Below are positions 2,126 to 11,614 of a stretch of 11,614 nt of DNA, piece by piece. A model generated the notes under the pieces. The model was given only the letters and a program-made list of their open reading frames with translations, was not told the DNA's origin and searched no databases. Made by a program: the position numbers and the translations under genes. The number at the start of each line of letters is the position of its first letter. Position 1 is the stretch's first letter. The stretch covers positions 1-11,614 of the forward strand of contig JANBQS010000812.1 in assembly GCA_027577415.1 (NCBI GenBank), written 5' to 3'. The stretch is from Coemansia sp. RSA 922. Its lineage: Eukaryota; Kickxellomycota; Kickxellomycetes; Kickxellales; Kickxellaceae.

Positions 2126-2230
2126 TAGGTGAAAATTAGTATTGAATGCTGAATACTGTAGAGATGTGGTAGTAAATTTGTTGGGTGGAGAAGAAGGAAG
2201 GATAGTTTTTGCATGCCAGATTCTTTTCAA

Positions 2231-2237
2231 TTTATAG
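2231..2237 (-). promoter_or_regulatory. TATA box of family member 3
   Basis: The - strand reads CCTATAAATT, about 106 bases before the ATG at 2125. The element and its flanks are conserved in the copy upstream of member 1. Confidence 0.55.
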
Positions 2238-2494
2238 GTGCTTTTAGTCAAGGCGGGACACGTTTTTCTTTCTATCTGTAAACACCCAACAATTGTTGAA
2301 TTGAATGTCTTTTTTTTGGGAGGGGCCATCCACTTCTTTACAATAAGCATTAATCAGATTTTTCAATCTAGAGAAGACTTTTTACATAGCTGCAAAGAGG
2401 GCTAAAACTTGTTGAAAGGCTGAAAAGAAGCCCACCCACATCGCCTTTGAATAAAAAAAAGTGCTTCAAAGAAAGTCGAGCAGCCTTTGAACAA

Positions 2495-2502
2495 TATAAA
2501 AG
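2495..2502 (+). promoter_or_regulatory. TATA box of family member 4
   Basis: TATAAAAG on the + strand lies about 195 bases before the ATG at 2692, implying a leader of roughly 165 bases. That leader would carry upstream ATGs: an ATG-ATG-TAG at 2564-2572 and a 26-codon ORF at 2593-2673 that ends 18 bases before the main start. Confidence 0.45.
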
Positions 2503-2592
2503 TTGTTTCCAAGCTCTGCCAGAAGATTCTCTGGGTTTCTTCTGTTGGGTAGAGACTTTGACCTATGATGTAGAGGAGAGGAAGAACGTTGA

Positions 2593-2673
2593 ATGAAAGT
2601 AGGAGGAATGGAACTAGTTCCTAGCCCTATTTTTCTTCTCTACATATTTAAATTTGTTTATTTTTACAAATAG
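2593..2673 (+). other. Possible upstream ORF in the leader of member 4
   Basis: The ATG at 2593 opens 26 codons and ends in TAG at 2671-2673. The peptide is hydrophobic toward its end and matches nothing I recognise. It would be translated only if transcription starts at the TATA box at 2495. Confidence 0.25.
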
Positions 2674-2691
2674 TAAAGCCTAAAGAAAATT

Positions 2692-3069
2692 ATGAACATT
2701 AAGTTAATAAGACAAGTTGGCAGTAATAGCCCAATAACCCTTAAACGTGGCTTTGACGTACATCAAGACGAGTCTAAGTTCATAGAGTTCTTAAAGGCTG
2801 AATTGAGTAAACTTGGTTTCCCGGAATGCTCGATAGAGCTACACGGGCTGAACAATGACCCTAAAGGTAACAAAGAGAATGAGGGTCCAGAAAAAAGGGT
2901 GTATATGGTGATGGACTATGTACAAATGGGGGAAGAAGGAGAAGTCTGGTGCCTTATAACGGGACTGAGTAATGCTGACTGGATTAATCTTCGTGATGCA
3001 GTTAGCAAAGCAAGTGGCACAGGTGAAAGCAATAGCACTGGTGAGAGAGAGTTTATTCCTATTCGCTAG
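2692..3069 (+). CDS. Small-protein family member 4 (125 residues)
   Basis: The family is unrecognised. The ATG at 2692 opens 125 codons to TAG at 3067-3069. The helix-strand core FIEFLKAELSKLGFPECSIEL aligns with ILKAELGHFRESGCNVEL of member 1, and GEVWCLITG with EVGIRVTGG. The N-terminal ITLKRGFDVHQDES corresponds to the second strand. The loop after the SIEL strand is charged (DPKGNKENEGPEKR), and the C-terminal tail is Ser/Gly-rich (GTGESNSTGERE). No signal peptide or membrane segment is seen, so a soluble intracellular protein is likely. It is the only + strand member and is divergent from member 3. A ubiquitin-like (beta-grasp) shape is conceivable from the order of elements, but this is only a guess. 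Confidence 0.6.
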   Translation: MNIKLIRQVGSNSPITLKRGFDVHQDESKFIEFLKAELSKLGFPECSIELHGLNNDPKGNKENEGPEKRVYMVMDYVQMGEEGEVWCLITGLSNADWINLRDAVSKASGTGESNSTGEREFIPIR

Positions 3070-3158
3070 ATTCTACTTTATGAAGGCTATAGTTTTTTTT
3101 TATAATAGTTGACTATTCTAATAAGAAACATTTATACTAATCCAATGAGGGGATTCAG

Positions 3159-3203
3159 TGAGCGGAGGATGAGGGGAGGATCTGCATGATTGAGCGGAGA
3201 ATG
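3159..3203. repeat. Direct repeat upstream of the synthetase gene
   Basis: TGAGCGGAGGATG (3159-3171) recurs as TGAGCGGAGAATG (3191-3203), 12 of 13 bases identical and 32 bases apart. It could be a paired regulator site. A CCAAT box (3142-3146) lies just upstream. Confidence 0.4.
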
Positions 3204-3225
3204 TGGTAATCGGATTGAATTTATA

Positions 3226-3232
3226 TGAGTCA
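3226..3232. promoter_or_regulatory. Gcn4/CPC1-type site (TGAGTCA)
   Basis: TGAGTCA is the exact core bound by the fungal bZIP regulators Gcn4p and CPC1, which activate amino-acid biosynthesis genes during starvation. It lies about 220 bases upstream of the synthetase ATG. That position and the arginine-pathway role of the gene make chance less likely, though a 7-base site alone is weak evidence. Confidence 0.6.
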
Positions 3233-3345
3233 CAATTTGTTGTTGACCTGAAAAAAAGTTTTCCTTTAAAGGAGCGAGATCTGACGACCAGAAAGCATGA
3301 TCTTTTCTCACTATTGCGTTTTTTTTAACAAAAATTTCTTCTTAC

Positions 3346-3417
3346 ATGTACCGTCACAAAAGTGAGAAAAACTCTTCCGACTACCTATCTGACCAAATCT
3401 GGACTACCTTGATCTGA
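3346..3417 (+). CDS. Arginine attenuator peptide upstream ORF in the synthetase leader
   Basis: The ATG at 3346-3348 opens 23 codons and ends in TGA at 3415-3417, 36 bases before the main ATG at 3454. Seen directly: the peptide has Asp12, Tyr13, Leu14, Ser15, Asp16, Trp19 and Leu22. Known of the family: the fungal arginine attenuator peptide of CPA1/arg-2 leaders is about 24-25 residues with the core D-Y-(L/I)-S-D-x-x-W. In Neurospora its essential Asp is residue 12. With arginine, the nascent peptide stalls the ribosome near its stop codon, lowers initiation at the downstream start and can trigger nonsense-mediated decay. The register here is identical. The ATG context is weak (T at -3), allowing leaky scanning, while the main ATG has A at -3. 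Odd: the attenuator is classically in front of the small-subunit gene, and here it precedes the large-subunit gene. Confidence 0.85.
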   Translation: MYRHKSEKNSSDYLSDQIWTTLI

Positions 3418-3453
3418 ATACTTTCTCTTTATTATTATTTTTTCTTTATCATT

Positions 3454-6400
3454 ATGTTGAGTGCTCGTACTATTTTCTTGGCTAAAAGCGCATCGATCAG
3501 TGGTGGCAAGCGTTTGGCCAGTGTGTCGGTTAAGCAGAGTCGCCAGCTGCACGTAAAGGCTACCCGTCGTCCTATTGGAGTTTCTTCTCTCCAGTCTGGT
3601 GTTTGTGCACCAGTGGCGTCTGGGCAGTTTATCGGCCGTCGTAGCTTCAGCGGGGCTCGCGTTCATCTCGAGGAGGCCAAGGCGCCAGTGGTGGGCGATG
3701 CAGTGGCGTTTGCGTCAGAGCTGGCGCGCACGGGGGCCAAGCTGGACGTGAAGAAGGTGCTCGTGGTTGGATCAGGCGGGCTGAGCATCGGGCAGGCGGG
3801 CGAGTTTGACTACTCTGGATCACAGGCGATCAAGGCGCTAAAGGAGTCGAACATCGAGACAGTGCTGGTCAACCCCAACATTGCGACGGTGCAGACGTCG
3901 CACGAGCTGGCCGACCACGTGTACTTTTCGCCGGTGACGCCGCAGTACTTGGCGCAGATCATCGAGCGCGAGCGGCCCGACGGCATCATGCTGGCGTTTG
4001 GCGGGCAGACGGCGCTGAACTGCGGCGTGCAGCTGAACAAAATGGGCGTGCTCGACAAGTTCAACGTGCGCGTGCTGGGCACGTCGGTGCGCACGCTGGA
4101 GCTGTCGGAGGACCGCGATCTGTTCGCGTCGGCGCTCAAGGACATTGGCATCCCCGTGGCGCACTCGGTGGCGGTCGACACGGTGGAGGACGCGCTGAAG
4201 GCGGCCGAGGAGATCGGGTACCCGGTGATTGTGCGGTCGGCGTACGCGCTGGGCGGGCTGGGGTCGGGGTTCGCGGGCTCGGCGGCGGAGCTGGCGGCGC
4301 TGGGCAGCCAGAGCCTGGCGCTGTGCCCGCAGATCCTGGTGGAGAAGTCGATGCGCGGGTGGAAGGAGGTCGAGTACGAGGTGGTGCGCGACGCGCAGGA
4401 CAACTGCGTGACGGTGTGCAACATGGAGAACTTTGACCCGCTGGGCGTGCACACGGGCGACTCGATCGTCGTGGCGCCCAGCCAGACGCTGAGCGACGAG
4501 GAGTACCACATGCTGCGCACGGCGGCGATCAAGATCGTGCGGCACATGGGCGTCGTCGGCGAGTGCAACGTGCAGTACGCGCTCAGCCCGCACAGCCTCG
4601 AGTACTGCGTCATCGAGATGAACGCGCGCCTGAGCCGCAGCTCGGCGCTGGCGTCCAAGGCGACCGGGTACCCGCTGGCGTTCGTGGCGGCCAAGATCGG
4701 GCTCGGGTGGACGCTGCCCGAGCTGCAGAACAGCGTGACGACGACGACCACCGCGTGCTTCGAGCCGAGCCTGGACTACGTCGTCACCAAGATCCCGCGC
4801 TGGGACCTGGCCAAGTTCAACCACGTGGCGCGCGACATCGGCTCGTGCATGAAGTCGGTCGGCGAGGTCATGGCGATCGGCCGGACCTTCGAGGAGTCGC
4901 TGCAGAAGGCCATCCGCTCGGTCGACCCGTCCTTCGCGGGCTTTGCGCCGCTGCCGGGCGAGACGCCGCGCGACGACGCCGAGCTGGAGGCGCTGCTGCG
5001 CGCGCCGACCGACCGGCGGCTGTTCCACCTGGCGTACGCGATGATCGAGCGCGGCTTCTCCGTCGACCGCCTGCACGCGATCACGGCCATCGACCGCTGG
5101 TTCCTGCACAAGCTCGAGAACATCTGCGAGGTGCACCGCGCGCTGAAGGACCCGCACCAGACGCTGCAGAATCTGACGCGCGCGCAGCTGGAGACCGCCA
5201 AGCGCGCGGGCTTCTCCGACGCGCACATCGCCAAGCTCCTGGCGGGCGGCGCCTCCGAGGACCTCGTGCGCGGCGCAAGAGACGCGTTTGGCCTGCGCCC
5301 GTTCGTCAAGCGCATCGACACGCTGGCCGGCGAGTTCCCCGCGCCCACAAACTACCTGTACACGACGTACAACGCGGCGACCGACGACGTCAGCTTTGGC
5401 GAGCGCGGCACGATGGTGCTCGGCTCGGGCGTGTACCGCATCGGGTCTTCTGTCGAGTTCGACTGGTGCGGCGTGTCGGCGATCCGCGCGCTGCGGCAGC
5501 TGGGGCGCAAGACGGTCATGGTCAACTACAACCCCGAGACGGTGTCGACCGACTTTGACGAGTGCGACCGCCTGTACTTTGACGAGCTCAGCTACGAGCG
5601 CGTGCGCGACATCTACGAGCTCGAGCAGTCGTCGGGCGTCATTGTCAGCGTGGGCGGCCAGCTGCCGCAGAACATCGCGCTGCGCCTGCACAACAACAAT
5701 GTGCGCGTCCTGGGCACGTCGCCGCACATGATCGACGCCGCCGAGGACCGCCACCGCTTCAGCCAGATCCTCGACCGCATTGGCGTCGACCAGCCCGCGT
5801 GGAAGGAGCTCGTCAGCGTCGAGGACGCCGAGGCCTTTGCCGACTCTGTCGGCTACCCCGTGCTTGTGCGCCCGTCGTACGTGCTTTCGGGCGCGGCCAT
5901 GAACGTCGCCTACGACCGCCACATGCTGCGCGAGCACCTGGGCCTGGCCGCCGCCGTCAGCCCCGAGCACCCCGTCGTCGTCACAAAGTTCATCCTGGGC
6001 GCGCGCGAGCTGGACATCGACGCCGTTGCCCACAACGGCGAGCTCATCGTCCACGCCGTCTGCGAGCACGTCGAGGACGCCGGCGTCCACTCGGGCGACG
6101 CCTCGCTGATCCTGCCGCCCGCCAACCTGAGCCAGGAGGTCATGGACCGCGTGCGCGAGATTGGCCGCAAGGTCGCCAGCGCCTTTGAGATCTCGGGGCC
6201 CTTCAACATGCAGATCATTATGCAACCACAGTCAGATAGCGAGCCTTTGCTCAAGGTCATCGAGTGCAACCTCCGCGCATCTCGCTCCTTCCCCTTTGTG
6301 TCAAAGGTCACCGACACCAATTTCGTTGATGCTGCTACTCGCGCCATCGTCGGCGAAGGTGTGCCCAAGCCTCGGGACCTGATGACGAACACTGGCAAGA

Positions 6401-7041
6401 ACTGGCCCTATACGGCGATCAAAGTGCCGCAGTTCTCGTGGACTCGTTTGGCTGGTGCTGATCCGTTCCTCGGCGTCGAAATGTCCTCTACTGGCGAGGT
6501 CGCCTGCTTTGGCAAGACGCCCGAGGAAGCCTACCTTGTCTCGCTCCTGTCTACTAACGGATTCCGTCTGCCTGCTCCTGGCAAGTCTGTTTACATTGGC
6601 GTTGACGATCTGACTGACCCGCGTATCGCCCAAAAGATCGCCAATCACTTTGCCGCTGCTGGCTACCCGATTCTGACTGACTGCGAGTCCACTCGCGATA
6701 TCATCAAGGATGTGGATGCGCGTGTTGTCAAGCTTGATTACGTTAACCGCCATGCTCTGCGTGATGCTGTCTTTGACAACAACATCGATCTTGTTGTCAA
6801 CTTGGCTAAGCGTCGTCCTGATGGCAAGCTCGATTCCAACTATAATATGCGTCGTATGGCTGTCGATTTCGCTATCCCGCTCGTCAACGACCAGCGTTGT
6901 GCCGAGATGCTTGTTGACGCATTGGATGCTCTGCCCTCTGGTACCTCCACCGCGCTATATGGATCTCAGCCACTAAACATTGAGACACCTGTAGCAGTAA
7001 AGACGTGGCGCGAGTATCTCGAGATGCGTAACGTGGACTGA
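3454..7041 (+). CDS. CPA2: Carbamoyl-phosphate synthetase, arginine-specific, large subunit (mitochondrial)
   Basis: The enzyme makes carbamoyl phosphate from glutamine-derived ammonia, bicarbonate and two ATP, for citrulline and arginine synthesis. It is 1195 residues and intronless. Residues 1 to about 75 are rich in Arg, Ser and Ala with few acids (ending GRRSFSGAR), a mitochondrial presequence. The carboxyphosphate half starts near residue 99 ([25 protein letters not shown]), with the ATP-grasp motif [20 protein letters not shown] near 388. A linker domain follows. The carbamoyl-phosphate half starts near 652 ([20 protein letters not shown]), with [15 protein letters not shown] near 937. 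An MGS-like regulatory domain runs from about 1044 to the end. No glutaminase or ATCase domain is fused, so this is the free large subunit of the arginine enzyme, not CAD. The glutaminase subunit is not in the window. Odd: GC content and codon endings change along the gene. Regulation is suggested by the Gcn4 site and attenuator uORF upstream. Confidence 0.95.
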   Translation: [1195 protein letters not shown]

Positions 7042-7070: not shown

Positions 7071-7138
7071 CTTTATTCCCCTATCGCATATATATATTAT
7101 ATTTGTTCTTTATATATTTCTTTACTCCCCTATCGCAT
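7071..7138. repeat. 19-bp direct repeat at the convergent gene ends
   Basis: CTTTATTCCCCTATCGCAT (7071-7089) and CTTTACTCCCCTATCGCAT (7120-7138) differ at one base and lie 49 bases apart. The second copy contains the last codons and stop of the MFS gene. In the first copy the one difference turns that part into AATAAA on the - strand. Confidence 0.8.
7072..7077 (-). terminator. AATAAA polyadenylation signal of the MFS gene
   Basis: AATAAA on the - strand lies 45 bases past the MFS stop (7122-7124). The signal is only 31 bases beyond the + strand synthetase stop, so the convergent transcripts are likely to overlap in the AT-rich gap, which includes an (AT)n run at 7050-7064. Confidence 0.55.
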
Positions 7139-8813
7139 GCGGCTTGAAATTCGCTCGCAATGGTACATGCTCCAACGGCAATGTAAACAAAAACGCTACA
7201 CCAGCAAACGGCACAGTAGCAATAAACACCTTTCTCAAGGCCAGTACGTAAATATGTACCAACTGACCACGTATATCATCTGGAATCCCCGACTTGTAAA
7301 TAAGACTCTGGTCGTTAACCGAGCCCATGATAGCCACCGCAAACTCTGGATACTGACTGACGAGAACTCCTAGTTTAGGCAAAAGCGAGTTTTGGAATAT
7401 ACTCTGCATAGCTGCTACTCCGATACTGGACCCCAAGATACGCATAAACAAAAACAAAGTAGTCGCCGCCGCCATATCCTTTGTCGGTGCCGCCGTCTGC
7501 ACCACGATAAGCAGGATCTGGATATTGAGTCCTAGTCCGAATCCCATGATAACCATGAACCCGATTTGTCTACCAGAGCTAATGTTCTCGTCAAATAATA
7601 CCATTAGTCCCGTGCCCACGACGAATAACGCCGTACCGAATATCACTAGCTCGCGGTACCGACCTGTTTTGACCACCAGAAATCCCGAAGCCACTGAAAC
7701 GAGTGAAATACTGAGCAAGTACGGTAGCAAGTGCAGCCCGGCTGTAATAGACCCGGCGTTCTTGACGATAGTGTACCAGATGGGGATAAAGAACATTGGG
7801 CAAAACATGCCCACGCCCATGAAGAACTGCCCCAACACCGACATGCTGACATTACGAATACGGAACAAGGGGATAGGCACTGTGGGGTCTGCCGAGGTCT
7901 TCCACTCGATGAGCAAAAAAACGACCAACATAATAACGCCGAATATCAATAGACATATGACGCGCGCCGACGACCACGGGAAATCTTTACCACCCCAAGT
8001 CAACGCCAACAAAAGCATTACCACGGCGCCGATGAGTACGGCTGATCCCAAAAAGTCCACCTTTTTGAGTTTAGCCCACAAAGATCCCTGCGGCTGAGGA
8101 AGGCGAAGAAAGAACACGACGATAATTAGCACTATGCCGGAAATCGGCAAGTTGATTAGAAACGCCCATCTCCACGACGCCTTTTCCGAAAATACACCAC
8201 CCAATACAGGTCCGATCACCGAGGCTATTGACCATACGGCGCCCAATACGCCTAAATACGCTGGCCTTTCTTCTTCGCTGGTCACGTCAGATATAATAAT
8301 AAAAACTAGGGCCACGAGTCCTGCGCCACCTACGCCCTGTAATGCGCGTCCAAATATAAGCACACCCATGCTCTGTGCCCATCCGCAAGCCGCACTACCC
8401 GCGATAAACACTATAATCGATACTATCAGTGAAGGCACCCGCCCAAATGTATCGCTCAGTCGCCCGTATAATGGCTGCAGCGCTGTCGTAGTAAGCATGT
8501 ATGCTGTCGCTATCCAGGTCGCCTCCGAGAGCGCTGAAAATTCCTGTGATATCTTGGGTATCGCCGTTGTCACTATCGTTAGGTCCAGGCTCGCTAATAG
8601 CATCGTCAGTGCGAGAGAAACAAATACTACGATACGTCTGACCTTTGACATTGGAATAGGCGCATGCCCCTCCTGTTGGCTATTAATAGACGCCGTTTCT
8701 TGTTGCTTCTCTACTATATCTGTCGTAGTTTCTGCGCTGATTGCCTTGCTCTCCTCCAAGTTGATAGTACTGGTATCGCCAGTATCCATGGCCTCTTTAG
8801 GTAACGGAACCAT
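7122..8813 (-). CDS. DHA2-type MFS multidrug/proton antiporter
   Basis: This is a plasma-membrane or vacuolar efflux transporter of the major facilitator superfamily, likely exporting drugs or small organic compounds in exchange for protons. It is 563 residues and intronless. A charged cytosolic N-terminus (1-60) is followed by about 14 hydrophobic helices, the count typical of DHA2. Family motifs seen are LDLTIVTTAIP (76-86, motif D1), GRLSDTFGRVP (117-127, motif A), GRALQGVGGAG (155-165, motif B), SVIGPVLGG (198-206, motif C) and WRWAFLINLPI (214-224). I chose the ATG at 8813-8811. An upstream in-frame ATG at 8906 would read through a T homopolymer, adding a run of Phe of unstable length. 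The gene converges on the synthetase gene and ends 80 bases from it; nothing suggests a shared role. The substrate cannot be told, and amino-acid or siderophore export in related families cannot be excluded. Confidence 0.9.
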   Translation of the reverse strand: MVPLPKEAMDTGDTSTINLEESKAISAETTTDIVEKQQETASINSQQEGHAPIPMSKVRRIVVFVSLALTMLLASLDLTIVTTAIPKISQEFSALSEATWIATAYMLTTTALQPLYGRLSDTFGRVPSLIVSIIVFIAGSAACGWAQSMGVLIFGRALQGVGGAGLVALVFIIISDVTSEEERPAYLGVLGAVWSIASVIGPVLGGVFSEKASWRWAFLINLPISGIVLIIVVFFLRLPQPQGSLWAKLKKVDFLGSAVLIGAVVMLLLALTWGGKDFPWSSARVICLLIFGVIMLVVFLLIEWKTSADPTVPIPLFRIRNVSMSVLGQFFMGVGMFCPMFFIPIWYTIVKNAGSITAGLHLLPYLLSISLVSVASGFLVVKTGRYRELVIFGTALFVVGTGLMVLFDENISSGRQIGFMVIMGFGLGLNIQILLIVVQTAAPTKDMAAATTLFLFMRILGSSIGVAAMQSIFQNSLLPKLGVLVSQYPEFAVAIMGSVNDQSLIYKSGIPDDIRGQLVHIYVLALRKVFIATVPFAGVAFLFTLPLEHVPLRANFKPHAIGE

Positions 8814-8816
8814 GTT

Positions 8817-8840
8817 AAAAAAAAAAAAAAAAAAAAAAAA
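8817..8840. repeat. 24-base poly(A)/poly(T) tract at the MFS start
   Basis: An uninterrupted run of 24 A on the + strand ends three bases before the MFS start codon. In the transcript direction it is T24-AAC-ATG. Such tracts exclude nucleosomes in fungal promoters. If transcribed, it forms a U-tract directly before the start codon. Its length is prone to sequencing error. Confidence 0.85.
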
Positions 8841-9277
8841 GTATTGTAGCAATAGAGATAAAGGAAAGAAACCTCTCAAGGATGAAAAAAAGTATGACCT
8901 TGGCATATAAGGAAGAGGGGGGAGCCGTGCTCATATTTTCTTTTTTTAATTTGTGGCTGTTACGCTCGCTCCATTCGGAAACTGGTTTGAAGAATACAAT
9001 TAAATTCTCACAGCCACGATGAGCAAATTTTTATTTTTTGTTTAGAACAAACGTCGTTATAAAATTTGGGGAGGGAGGAGGGAGGGAGGATAGTTCTCCT
9101 TTCAATTGTACTTTATACCAAGCAGCAGTAATAGTAGACCTTGTTTGAAAGACCGAAAAAATAATTCCCTTACCCTACTTTTTTTTTTTTTACTAATTTC
9201 CATGTGATGATCACTTTTTGCTCATCATGCACACGCTAGAGCTAATTGACATAATATTAACTAATTAATGTGATTTT
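8841..9277. other. Intergenic region between the MFS start and the zinc-finger ORF
   Basis: No supported gene is seen. The region holds the presumed MFS promoter, several T and A runs (for example about 9178-9191) and a G-rich quadruplex-type motif at 9068-9086. I see no clear TATA box for the MFS gene on the - strand. Confidence 0.5.
9068..9086 (+). other. Potential G-quadruplex
   Basis: The + strand reads GGGG-A-GGG-AGGA-GGG-A-GGG: four runs of at least three G with loops of one to four bases. It lies about 255 bases upstream of the MFS start and is C-rich on that gene's coding strand. Confidence 0.6.
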
Positions 9278-9433
9278 TTACTGAGCTGATACTGGTTGAT
9301 GTGGAGGCCGCTTGTGTGCTTGGATATGTATGACGAGCTGACTGAAGCACGCTGCCTTGTAGTGACAAGTAGGACACTGGAACAGCGACCTGTTTTGGCT
9401 AACGACTAGTGTCTGAGAAAATGTACACACCAT
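9278..9433 (-). CDS. Single C2H2 zinc-finger microprotein (51 residues) or terminal exon
   Basis: The ATG at 9433-9431 opens 51 codons to TAA at 9278-9280. Residues 18-40 form one canonical finger, FQCPTC then 12 residues then HIQAH, which is C-x2-C-x12-H-x3-H, with Leu in the normal core position and Ala in place of the usual Phe. A basic KRPP follows. A TATA box lies 112 bases upstream on the same strand, the same spacing as in the small-protein genes, which supports an independent gene. The bases before the ATG (pyrimidine-rich, ATTAACCTCAAG) could also be a 3' splice site, making this the last exon of a larger zinc-finger gene. A lone finger usually binds DNA weakly, so it may need a partner. 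No close relative is recognised. Confidence 0.45.
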   Translation of the reverse strand: MVCTFSQTLVVSQNRSLFQCPTCHYKAACFSQLVIHIQAHKRPPHQPVSAQ

Positions 9434-9481
9434 CTTGAGGTTAATGATAAATAAAAGAGATAAATAATAAAAAAAGAGAGG

Positions 9482-9516
9482 TTAGATAGACATGCTCTAT
9501 TTATCTTTTAGATCAT
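9482..9516 (-). promoter_or_regulatory. Two minimal upstream ORFs in the zinc-finger leader
   Basis: On the - strand the leader holds ATG-ATC-TAA (9516-9508) and ATG-TCT-ATC-TAA (9493-9482). Both lie between the TATA box (9545-9553) and the ATG at 9433. Such tiny uORFs can reduce or gate initiation at the main start. Confidence 0.35.
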
Positions 9517-9544
9517 GATATCTTTGTGGAGGGGAAAAGGTTCC

Positions 9545-9553
9545 TTTTATATA
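9545..9553 (-). promoter_or_regulatory. TATA box of the zinc-finger ORF
   Basis: The - strand reads TATATAAAAGG, a near-perfect TATA box, 112 bases before the ATG at 9433. Confidence 0.5.
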
Positions 9554-9556
9554 AAC

Positions 9557-10127
9557 AAAAGAAAAAATAAAAGGAGGAAAGAAAAAAAAAAAACATGCTG
9601 TTATCTTTTTTGCTCGTCCGCCCTGCCCGCCACCTGCTTCTTATTGCTTCCGATGTGTACATATTCGGAAATTAGACAACCCGCATTCTAGGCACTCGTA
9701 AGAGTGCATGTTCCTTTTTCTTCTGCACGTGGATGACGAATCTGGGTGTTGCAGCCTCTCACTCTCTATTATTTTCCGGAAGAAAAAAAGTGACAGATAT
9801 GCAGAAGCATATGATGGATATGACATGCAGCAGCAGCAGCGGTGGAAAACACTCCTATCAGCAAAAATAACAGCAGTGGCTATTGCGTAGTTGCTTCACA
9901 CTAATTTGATTCTCCGCCACTTTCTCGAAAGAAAAAAAATGTGAGCACGTGGCTTGAAGATGACTGATTGGGCGACAATTTTCAAGAGTGAGAAGCACTC
10001 TCTCCCCACTTGCTCAAAATACCCCCTCTTTTTTTTCCACCTTTTTTTATTTCTTCCGACTTTGAATTTCTCACGTGTGTTTTTTTTAACCAATTTGAAA
10101 TATTATCATTCATTTTCATTTCAGCTA
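9557..10127 (+). other. Intergenic region with three E-boxes upstream of the last gene
   Basis: No convincing gene is seen. CACGTG, the core bound by bHLH regulators, occurs at 9726-9731, 9946-9951 and 10072-10077, all upstream of the ATG at 10128. A short - strand frame (9709-9641) has a C-x2-C pair (YECLECG) but no complete finger. (CAG)4 lies at 9828-9839. A pyrimidine-rich TTTTCATTTCAG ending at 10124 looks like a 3' splice site of a possible leader intron. Confidence 0.4.
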
Positions 10128-11614
10128 ATGGATGGAGAAGAAGCACCACAACAACTTACCGACAGTACGCCGCCGACGCCGCCGACGCCGCTGCAGGCAG
10201 AAGAAGACGCCACGAGCTGCAGCAGCGTTCCAATACAGTCAGTAGTGGATGAGGCGATTGTTCCCAACACACCAACAAAAGTGGCTGAGGAAAAAGAGGA
10301 AGAAGAAGTGGAGCCCAGCCAGACAACGTCCGATGTCTTACCAGCTGTTCAAGAGATGACTCAAGAGCTGGCGGATGATTTGGCGCAGGACCAACAACGT
10401 ACCGGTGACATTAGTGGCGGGTACTCGACTAGTAGCTCTCTTTATGGCGGTTCATTATCACTAATTGGAACTGGCGGCGCAGATACCAGCATTGGCCGTA
10501 CTACAAGTATCATCGGACTAGCGCCTACACTTGGTGGAGGCACGCTGAGCCCGCCGCACACTTTGGTCAACAGCGATGGAGCCAGTATGAGGGTACATAC
10601 GGGCAGTATTCGCGAGCGCAACTTCAACCGTCGTATCTCGGCTATCCACGAAGATGACTCTGACGTGTACTCGGAGAGTCGTCGATCAGATTCAATGATA
10701 TTCAGCCAGACTCAACAGCCATCCGTATCGCCCTCTCGTCGTCACCAGTCAAACTACCAGGGTCATCATGGCCGGCAAAGACAAAATAATAGTATTCGCT
10801 ATCAGCGCCGAATGTCAGAGGATGACAATAGCTGTATGCCGCGCTTGCTTAGTGAGAGCGACTGTCTGTCTATTGTATCGGGGATTAGTGAGGGCGGCGC
10901 TTCCACTACTCGTGTACGCTTGGCTACTGACCGTGCCTATGATGCGCTGAGGATAGGAGCTCCACCTGCTGTTATTGCTGCTGGTGGTGGTGGTGGCCAC
11001 TTGGGCTTTGGATACATCCACCATTACCAGGGAGGAGGAGGAGGCAGTAACCAGTATCCCCATCGAGCAATGTCCTTTGCCACATCGAGTGATCCTGGTC
11101 TGCCCAGCACCGGGTCATTTTACGATTATTATCTCGACCCAAACGACTATGTGCCGAATTCGGGCTCGACTAGAGATGGCGACCATGACGAGGACGACGA
11201 TGAGGACGATAGAGATTCTGACGATGATGATAGCAACAGCGAGTGCGGCCCTCGCCACCACCACCATCATAGGCGCCGTCGCCGCCGCCGAGATGACGAA
11301 GACATTGTCAGTCTGATACGTAGCGATATCGCCGTGTATGGCAGCGCCGTCGACGATGTGAAATTCCCCTTTTTGCCAGATAATTTCAGCGAGTTTAGTG
11401 GATCTGTCGTATACTCACCCAATGGCGCAATTGGTACAGACTGCGGCGGCGGTGATCGAGGGTTGAGAGAGCTCACAGAGGTCTATTACGCTCCACAATA
11501 CCAACAACAGCAGCAGCCACTGTCTCCACAGCAACAGCAAAGCTCGGAGCAGAATGGTAGTCGAGCTAGTAGCAACAAAAAGAGTCGTCGAGGCAAAGAT
11601 CGCTTGATTATTAG
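10128..11614 (+). CDS. Large disordered low-complexity protein (N-terminal part, cut by the window end)
   Basis: From the ATG at 10128 one frame stays open for 495 codons to the window end. I do not recognise the family. Nearly all of it looks disordered: TPPTPPTP near residue 12, a Glu-rich stretch near 61-67, Ser/Gly-rich repeats, a Gly run near 290, an acidic Asp/Glu run at about 350-374, then five His and seven Arg (377-388), and Gln-rich segments after 459. Two RRxS sequences (168-171 and 227-230) fit the protein kinase A consensus. A less biased island (DDEDIVSLIRSDIAVYGSAV and following, about 389-430) may be functional. No membrane helix is seen so far. It could be the regulatory N-terminus of a larger enzyme, channel or nuclear factor. 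The start could lie further upstream, as the frame is open before 10128. Confidence 0.75.
   Translation, partial: MDGEEAPQQLTDSTPPTPPTPLQAEEDATSCSSVPIQSVVDEAIVPNTPTKVAEEKEEEEVEPSQTTSDVLPAVQEMTQELADDLAQDQQRTGDISGGYSTSSSLYGGSLSLIGTGGADTSIGRTTSIIGLAPTLGGGTLSPPHTLVNSDGASMRVHTGSIRERNFNRRISAIHEDDSDVYSESRRSDSMIFSQTQQPSVSPSRRHQSNYQGHHGRQRQNNSIRYQRRMSEDDNSCMPRLLSESDCLSIVSGISEGGASTTRVRLATDRAYDALRIGAPPAVIAAGGGGGHLGFGYIHHYQGGGGGSNQYPHRAMSFATSSDPGLPSTGSFYDYYLDPNDYVPNSGSTRDGDHDEDDDEDDRDSDDDDSNSECGPRHHHHHRRRRRRRDDEDIVSLIRSDIAVYGSAVDDVKFPFLPDNFSEFSGSVVYSPNGAIGTDCGGGDRGLRELTEVYYAPQYQQQQQPLSPQQQQSSEQNGSRASSNKKSRRGKDRLII

Follow-up and report, generated by a model that had tools for sequence, protein, structure and literature searches.

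Is the arginine attenuator peptide (AAP) tied to the small-subunit gene of carbamoyl-phosphate synthetase (CPS), or can it also stand before the gene of the large subunit? The AAP is a textbook example of a eukaryotic nascent-chain sensor and is known as a control of the small subunit. Fungal small-subunit uORFs were reportedly surveyed by Hood, Spevak and Sachs in 2007, and the sequence requirements of the AAP are said to have been treated by Spevak, Ivanov and Sachs in 2010. The question is raised by a short upstream open reading frame (uORF) in Coemansia sp. RSA 922, located in a stretch of 11,614 nucleotides (contig JANBQS010000812.1, hereafter the window), in which a sequence-only reading had recognized an AAP in the leader of the large-subunit gene (CPA2). 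The following features are concerned:

3346..3417, plus strand: uORF encoding an AAP-type peptide, MYRHKSEKNSSDYLSDQIWTTLI, with stop codon TGA (translation, PF08252, PDB 2xl1_A, second copy on C20)
3379..3402, plus strand: AAP core D12-Y13-L14-S15-D16-Q17-I18-W19 (pattern found once in the window)
3418..3453, plus strand: ATG-free spacer of 36 bases between uORF stop and main start (sequence, list of leader ATGs)
3454..7041, plus strand: CPA2-type carbamoyl-phosphate synthetase large subunit, 1195 aa (CPSase_L_D1, D2, D3)

Translation of 3346-3417 on the plus strand yielded MYRHKSEKNSSDYLSDQIWTTLI, encoded by 23 codons and followed by TGA. As the sequence-only reading had described, the frame ends 36 bases before the synthetase ATG at 3454 and its product carries D12, Y13, L14, S15, D16 and W19. 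PF08252 (Leader_CPA1) was the sole Pfam family found at E values up to 1 for this peptide, as it was for its counterpart from the CPA1 leader (see below); the score of the CPA2-uORF peptide was 17.5 bits (E 0.0027), just under the cut-off of 18.5. A search of the PDB at E ≤ 10 returned a single, weak match (E 0.34) to 2xl1_A, the arginine attenuator peptide from Neurospora. The alignment was gap-free over the same positions 6-22 and included L14, S15 and D16 of the core, with differences at residues 7-9 and 11. The residues Asp12, Tyr13 and Trp19, which are given as critical for stalling in a passage of the review PMC3130931, are in register in the CPA2-uORF peptide. That passage also prints Lys14, a position occupied by Leu in the 2xl1_A chain.

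What follows the frame is not the small-subunit gene expected behind an arg-2/CPA1 leader, but a gene with CPSase_L domains, with CPSase_L_D1 and D2 matched by Pfam in two stretches each, together with D3. The proposed pairing of an AAP-type peptide with a downstream large-subunit gene is supported by register, by PF08252 as the sole family listed, if below its cut-off, and by the weak match to 2xl1_A on the side of the peptide, and by the large-chain domains on the side of the gene. Among the matches listed, the best named relative of the protein was a partial cpa2 product of Coemansia sp. RSA 2673 (98.0% identity over 1135 aa), whose first residues coincide with those of the ORF at 3454. Judged by eye, the N-terminus likely contains a mitochondrial presequence. 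Searches of the whole window with Rfam at gathering score and for tRNAs returned no match.

One of the checks suggested at the outset was to look for the same uORF before the small-subunit gene of this genome, where a frame of this type was indeed found. PF00988 had two matches in the assembly, one on contig C126 and one in a CAD-like gene on C197. The C126 gene (CPA1) has a product of 433 aa in which CPSase_sm_chain and GATase domains are present, and a DNA search with the locus recovered one copy in the assembly plus two short matches on C197. The CPA1 leader encodes MYAHSFEKNSSDYISEQVWKALDN in a frame that ends 62 bases before the main ATG:

L010 3070-3144, minus strand: AAP-type frame of the CPA1 leader (translation)

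In this peptide D12, Y13 and W19 occupy the same register as in the CPA2 frame, together with I14, S15 and E16 (Glu replacing Asp at position 16). Its PF08252 score of 17.8 bits likewise fell under 18.5, although the frame is in the classical position. By its sequence, an AAP-type uORF precedes both arginine-type CPS subunit genes in one genome.

In the assembly, the core pattern was found in CPS leaders only. It occurred once in the window and in none of 200 dinucleotide shuffles of it. A relaxed version matched three times in the assembly (20,375,970 bases in 960 contigs), with no match for the reversed-pattern control, and all three sites were CPS leaders: those of CPA2 on C810 (the window) and C20, and that of CPA1 on C126. 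A stricter version retrieved just the two CPA2 copies. When the C126 peptide was used as a protein query (E ≤ 10), with scoring limited to the candidates of a loose first look (n = 3), the same three leaders and nothing else were returned. Neither pattern nor protein search (E ≤ 10) placed an AAP in front of CAD or any other gene of the assembly; the CAD leader may be cut off, since C197 ends approximately 600 bases past the PF00988 match. When PF08252 was run over all six frames of the genome, two matches below the cut-off were listed, one to the CPA1 frame with 15.6 bits and one on C28 with 14.9 bits, and the CPA2 frames were not among them. The C28 match covers model positions 3-13 only and so does not reach W19 of the core. 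In the corresponding control, one of 14 genomes (Bacteroides ihuae) was matched, also below the cut-off.

Outside this genome, an ATG followed by the core in fixed register was matched seven times in the prokaryote collection genome_contigs (257 billion bases by its description), and tblastn with CPA1 and CPA2 (E 1e-3) found no CPS gene in the seven stretches of 3.2-8 kb each. The same pattern had no match in viral_contigs. A contig of viral_contigs with adjacent CPA1-like and CPA2-like frames, encountered in the CPA2 scan, was taken as bacterial-type carAB and discarded. Among the annotated CPS models listed for relatives (120 of 7972 for CPA2 and 120 of 7999 for CPA1), none contained the AAP motif, and a protein search with a 46-aa frame gave no match.

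The CPA2 region is present twice in the assembly (G000:C810 and G000:C20:1-9633), with approximately 3.4% divergence in the coding sequence (CDS), and CPA1 once. Collinearity between C810 and C20 extends through most of the window, and the two probably represent haplotypes, with a hybrid or a mixed assembly as the alternative. The CPA2 protein of C20 is 99.4% identical to that of RSA 2673, and from these likenesses the organism is probably a Coemansia (Kickxellomycota, Kickxellales) near RSA 2673. Conservation of the core, whose absence in close relatives had been named as a ground for refutation, was examined on this collinear copy of the same assembly, and the uORF proved identical at 72 of 72 bases. 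In the leader above it (3070-3345), 20 of 273 aligned bases differ and 15 gap columns occur; the spacer has one difference in 36 bases and one gap column, and the CPA2 CDS differs at 123 of 3582 bases, with 50 of 665 fourfold sites changed. The longest unchanged run within 2197-3453 is 3341-3420 (80 bases). None of the 205 possible 72-base windows in the leader above the uORF is unchanged, compared to 506 of 3517 in the CDS, 216 of 1624 in the neighboring MFS gene and 87 of 1072 in the stretch 8817-9959, which holds unchanged runs of 140 and 89 bases. By simple arithmetic, all 72 bases would escape change with a chance of about 0.004 if they varied like the leader and of about 0.08 if they varied like the CDS. 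Because equally long unchanged stretches occur elsewhere and a single pair of copies was compared, the identity of the uORF lends modest support to constraint.

Just upstream of the CPA2 leader, a 125-aa ORF (2692-3069), for which Pfam listed no family at E ≤ 1, shows 72% protein identity between C810 and C20. More distant relatives within the genome are found on C469 (40%), C44 (33%) and at C20:37272 (31%), the latter two with one internal TGA each; going by these likenesses, the ORF is a member of a small gene family. On the other side, CPA2 is adjoined by a gene for an MFS transporter with TRI12-type similarity (7122-8816, minus strand), and beyond it 9960-11612 (plus strand) is taken up by a long open frame with acidic runs and many Ser, His and Arg residues, for which no Pfam family scored above the cut-off. 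To the left of CPA2, two pairs of repeated blocks were detected (146-435 with 1220-1511, 72.6%; 496-767 with 2196-2466, 86.5%). The collinear C20 lacks a close equivalent of the segment 762-2196, of which it matches 1220-1510 alone (72%); an additional repeat unit thus seems to be present in the window copy.

The leaders were also compared with regard to start contexts and promoter sites. A weak uORF start and a stronger main start had been noted, and for CPA2 this was confirmed by T at −3 of the uORF ATG (CTTACATGT) and A at −3 of the main ATG (TCATTATGT). T at −3 of the uORF ATG is common to all three leaders (C810, C20 and C126). The main ATG has A at this position in both CPA2 copies and C in CPA1, and the weak/strong contrast is therefore clear only for CPA2. 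In the window, an extra ATG precedes the uORF by 49 bases; C20 does not have it. Other upstream ATGs lie at least 121 bases above the uORF in the CPA2 leaders and 228 bases above it in CPA1. Each of the three leaders further contains a TGAGTCA motif, which we take to be a Gcn4/CPC1-type site:

3226..3232, plus strand: TGAGTCA promoter site, 120 bases upstream of the CPA2 uORF

The corresponding distances are 125 bases in C20 and 251 bases in CPA1. In 43,408 bases of the genome examined, TGASTCA had five sites, three of which are those of the three leaders. The CPA1 and CPA2 promoters have TGAGTCAC in common.

Comparison of the CPA1 and CPA2 leaders by blastn gave the uORF as the best match (78% over 41 bases) and 18 bases corresponding to the TGAGTCAC element as the second best, with little else in common. 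In an alignment of the two frames without internal gaps, 14 of the 23 residues of the shorter peptide are identical in the other. The agreement extends beyond the core: at residues 2-11, which lie ahead of it, seven of ten are alike, a value reached in 18 of 200,000 shuffles of one side in a test chosen after the likeness was noticed. Common descent is indicated by EKNSS, which precedes the core in both frames. The codons of Y2, H4, E7, K8, N9, D12, Y13, W19 and L22 are identical in both, and those of S10, S11, S15 and Q17 differ in the third base. We read this as common descent of the two frames, not very recent, with the N-terminal residues kept alike.

These observations bear unequally on the ways in which the CPA2 frame could be explained. 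A chance or decayed uORF with no regulatory effect, whether coincidence or relic, would be in keeping with the PF08252 score below the cut-off and with the fair number of 72-base windows of the CDS that are likewise unchanged (506 of 3517). Such a uORF would hardly account for the absence of the core pattern from 200 shuffles, for three sites in 20.4 Mb of which every one is a CPS leader, or for 72/72 identity between copies while the leader above varies, and we consider it very unlikely. We attach just as little weight to the idea that the frame is missing from the mature mRNA, being either spliced out or above the transcript start. The CPA2 frame does contain GTGAGA as a possible donor-like string, but this string is not kept in the CPA1 frame, and since the RSA 2673 protein shares the N-terminus of the ORF at 3454, 36 bases would be left for the splice end before the main ATG. 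The position of TGAGTCA, 120 bases above the uORF, speaks against a frame upstream of the transcript.

As to origin, the sequence-only reading had left a choice between an element that moved or was copied between the leaders and control of both subunits that is old or separately gained. A move from the small- to the large-subunit leader does not fit and is rejected on account of the AAP frame that also precedes CPA1 on C126. Copying is favored over separate gain by the agreement of seven out of ten residues at positions 2-11. Gain of the CPA2 frame by convergence under arginine-sensing selection appears improbable in view of that agreement (18 of 200,000 shuffles) and of the alignment at 78% over 41 bases, even though convergence is proposed for the AAP-like TgApiAT1 uORF in a section of PMC8370653. 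More weight, though still that of a tentative alternative, can be given to ancient dual control, in which the AAP preceded both CPS genes in an ancestor shared with Dikarya and was later lost from the large-subunit leader in Dikarya. An AAP before the large-subunit gene is not known from Dikarya. The presence of the AAP in both leaders today and the agreement of the core with the 2xl1_A chain are consistent with this history, as are the third bases of S10, S11 and S15, which all differ, so that any copying was not very recent. However, E7, K8, N9 and S11 are common to both frames and none of them occurs in 2xl1_A (residues 6-22 compared), for which copying within the lineage is the better fit. 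Roughly even odds can be given to a history in which, in Kickxellomycota, the peptide was copied between the CPS leaders, giving a two-gene translational regulon in which one nascent-chain sensor would set both subunits.

With respect to function, the analysis as a whole makes it quite probable that the CPA2 frame encodes an AAP-type peptide that stalls ribosomes at high arginine and lowers CPA2 translation, and that the sister frame of CPA1 acts alike. The steps outlined here are modelled on the AAP of Neurospora, yeast and Cryptococcus; stalling at the uORF stop codon and nonsense-mediated decay are described for the AAP in portions of PMC11550727, PMC7049704 and PMC7969011. At low arginine, scanning ribosomes would skip the weak uORF start, or complete the uORF undelayed, and go on to the CPA2 start. 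At high arginine, ribosomes that have made the peptide would stall at the uORF stop codon and block scanning, and the stalled mRNA may be exposed to nonsense-mediated decay. Provided that the CPA1 leader behaves in the same way, the two subunits would drop together, and one metabolite would control both at the level of translation, with general amino acid control acting at transcription via TGAGTCA. The two frames would either go back to one frame that was copied between leaders or have stayed alike since both existed.

The CPA2 frame can be compared with three described systems. Like the AAP of N. crassa arg-2 and S. cerevisiae CPA1, it is a short uORF (approximately 24 codons in those cases) with a weak start before a gene of the same enzyme, and it has the register of 2xl1_A with D12-Y13-L14-S15-D16 and W19. 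As far as the excerpts at hand describe it, the arg-2/CPA1 AAP precedes the small-subunit gene, whereas here it precedes the large-subunit gene and is present before the small-subunit gene as well. In Cryptococcus, an AAP uORF in a non-ascomycete as here, the frame belongs to CND01050, a CPA1 homologue, and shows strong ribosome occupancy, with mRNA levels raised in the upf1 mutant; unlike the CPA2 case, the passages of PMC7049704 concerned give the AAP for the CPA1/arg-2 homologue only. The TgApiAT1 uORF of T. gondii is the counterpart in standing, AAP-like, before a gene other than that of the CPS small subunit. According to the relevant parts of PMC8370653, it encodes an arginine-responsive peptide of 33 aa with an important Asp, precedes the gene of an apicomplexan arginine transporter and is a possible case of convergence. 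In contrast, the fungal gene concerned here encodes the other subunit of CPS itself, and its uORF seems to have a common origin with the CPA1 frame. Among the matches listed in the open-licence full-text literature, none had an AAP before a large-subunit gene, which does not establish its absence in print.

With an AAP-type frame in the leaders of both subunit genes, this genome suggests that a set of genes can be placed under the one sensor. The two peptides, with D16 and E16, respectively, and with different tails, are a natural divergent pair for probing the requirements of the sensor. The origin of a regulatory uORF peptide, whether copied, ancestral or convergent, becomes testable in existing genomes of early-diverging fungi, and copying, if true, would be a rare spread of such a peptide between the leaders of partner subunits. 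For the fungus itself, abundant arginine would probably reduce the translation of both halves of the enzyme, and not of the small half alone.
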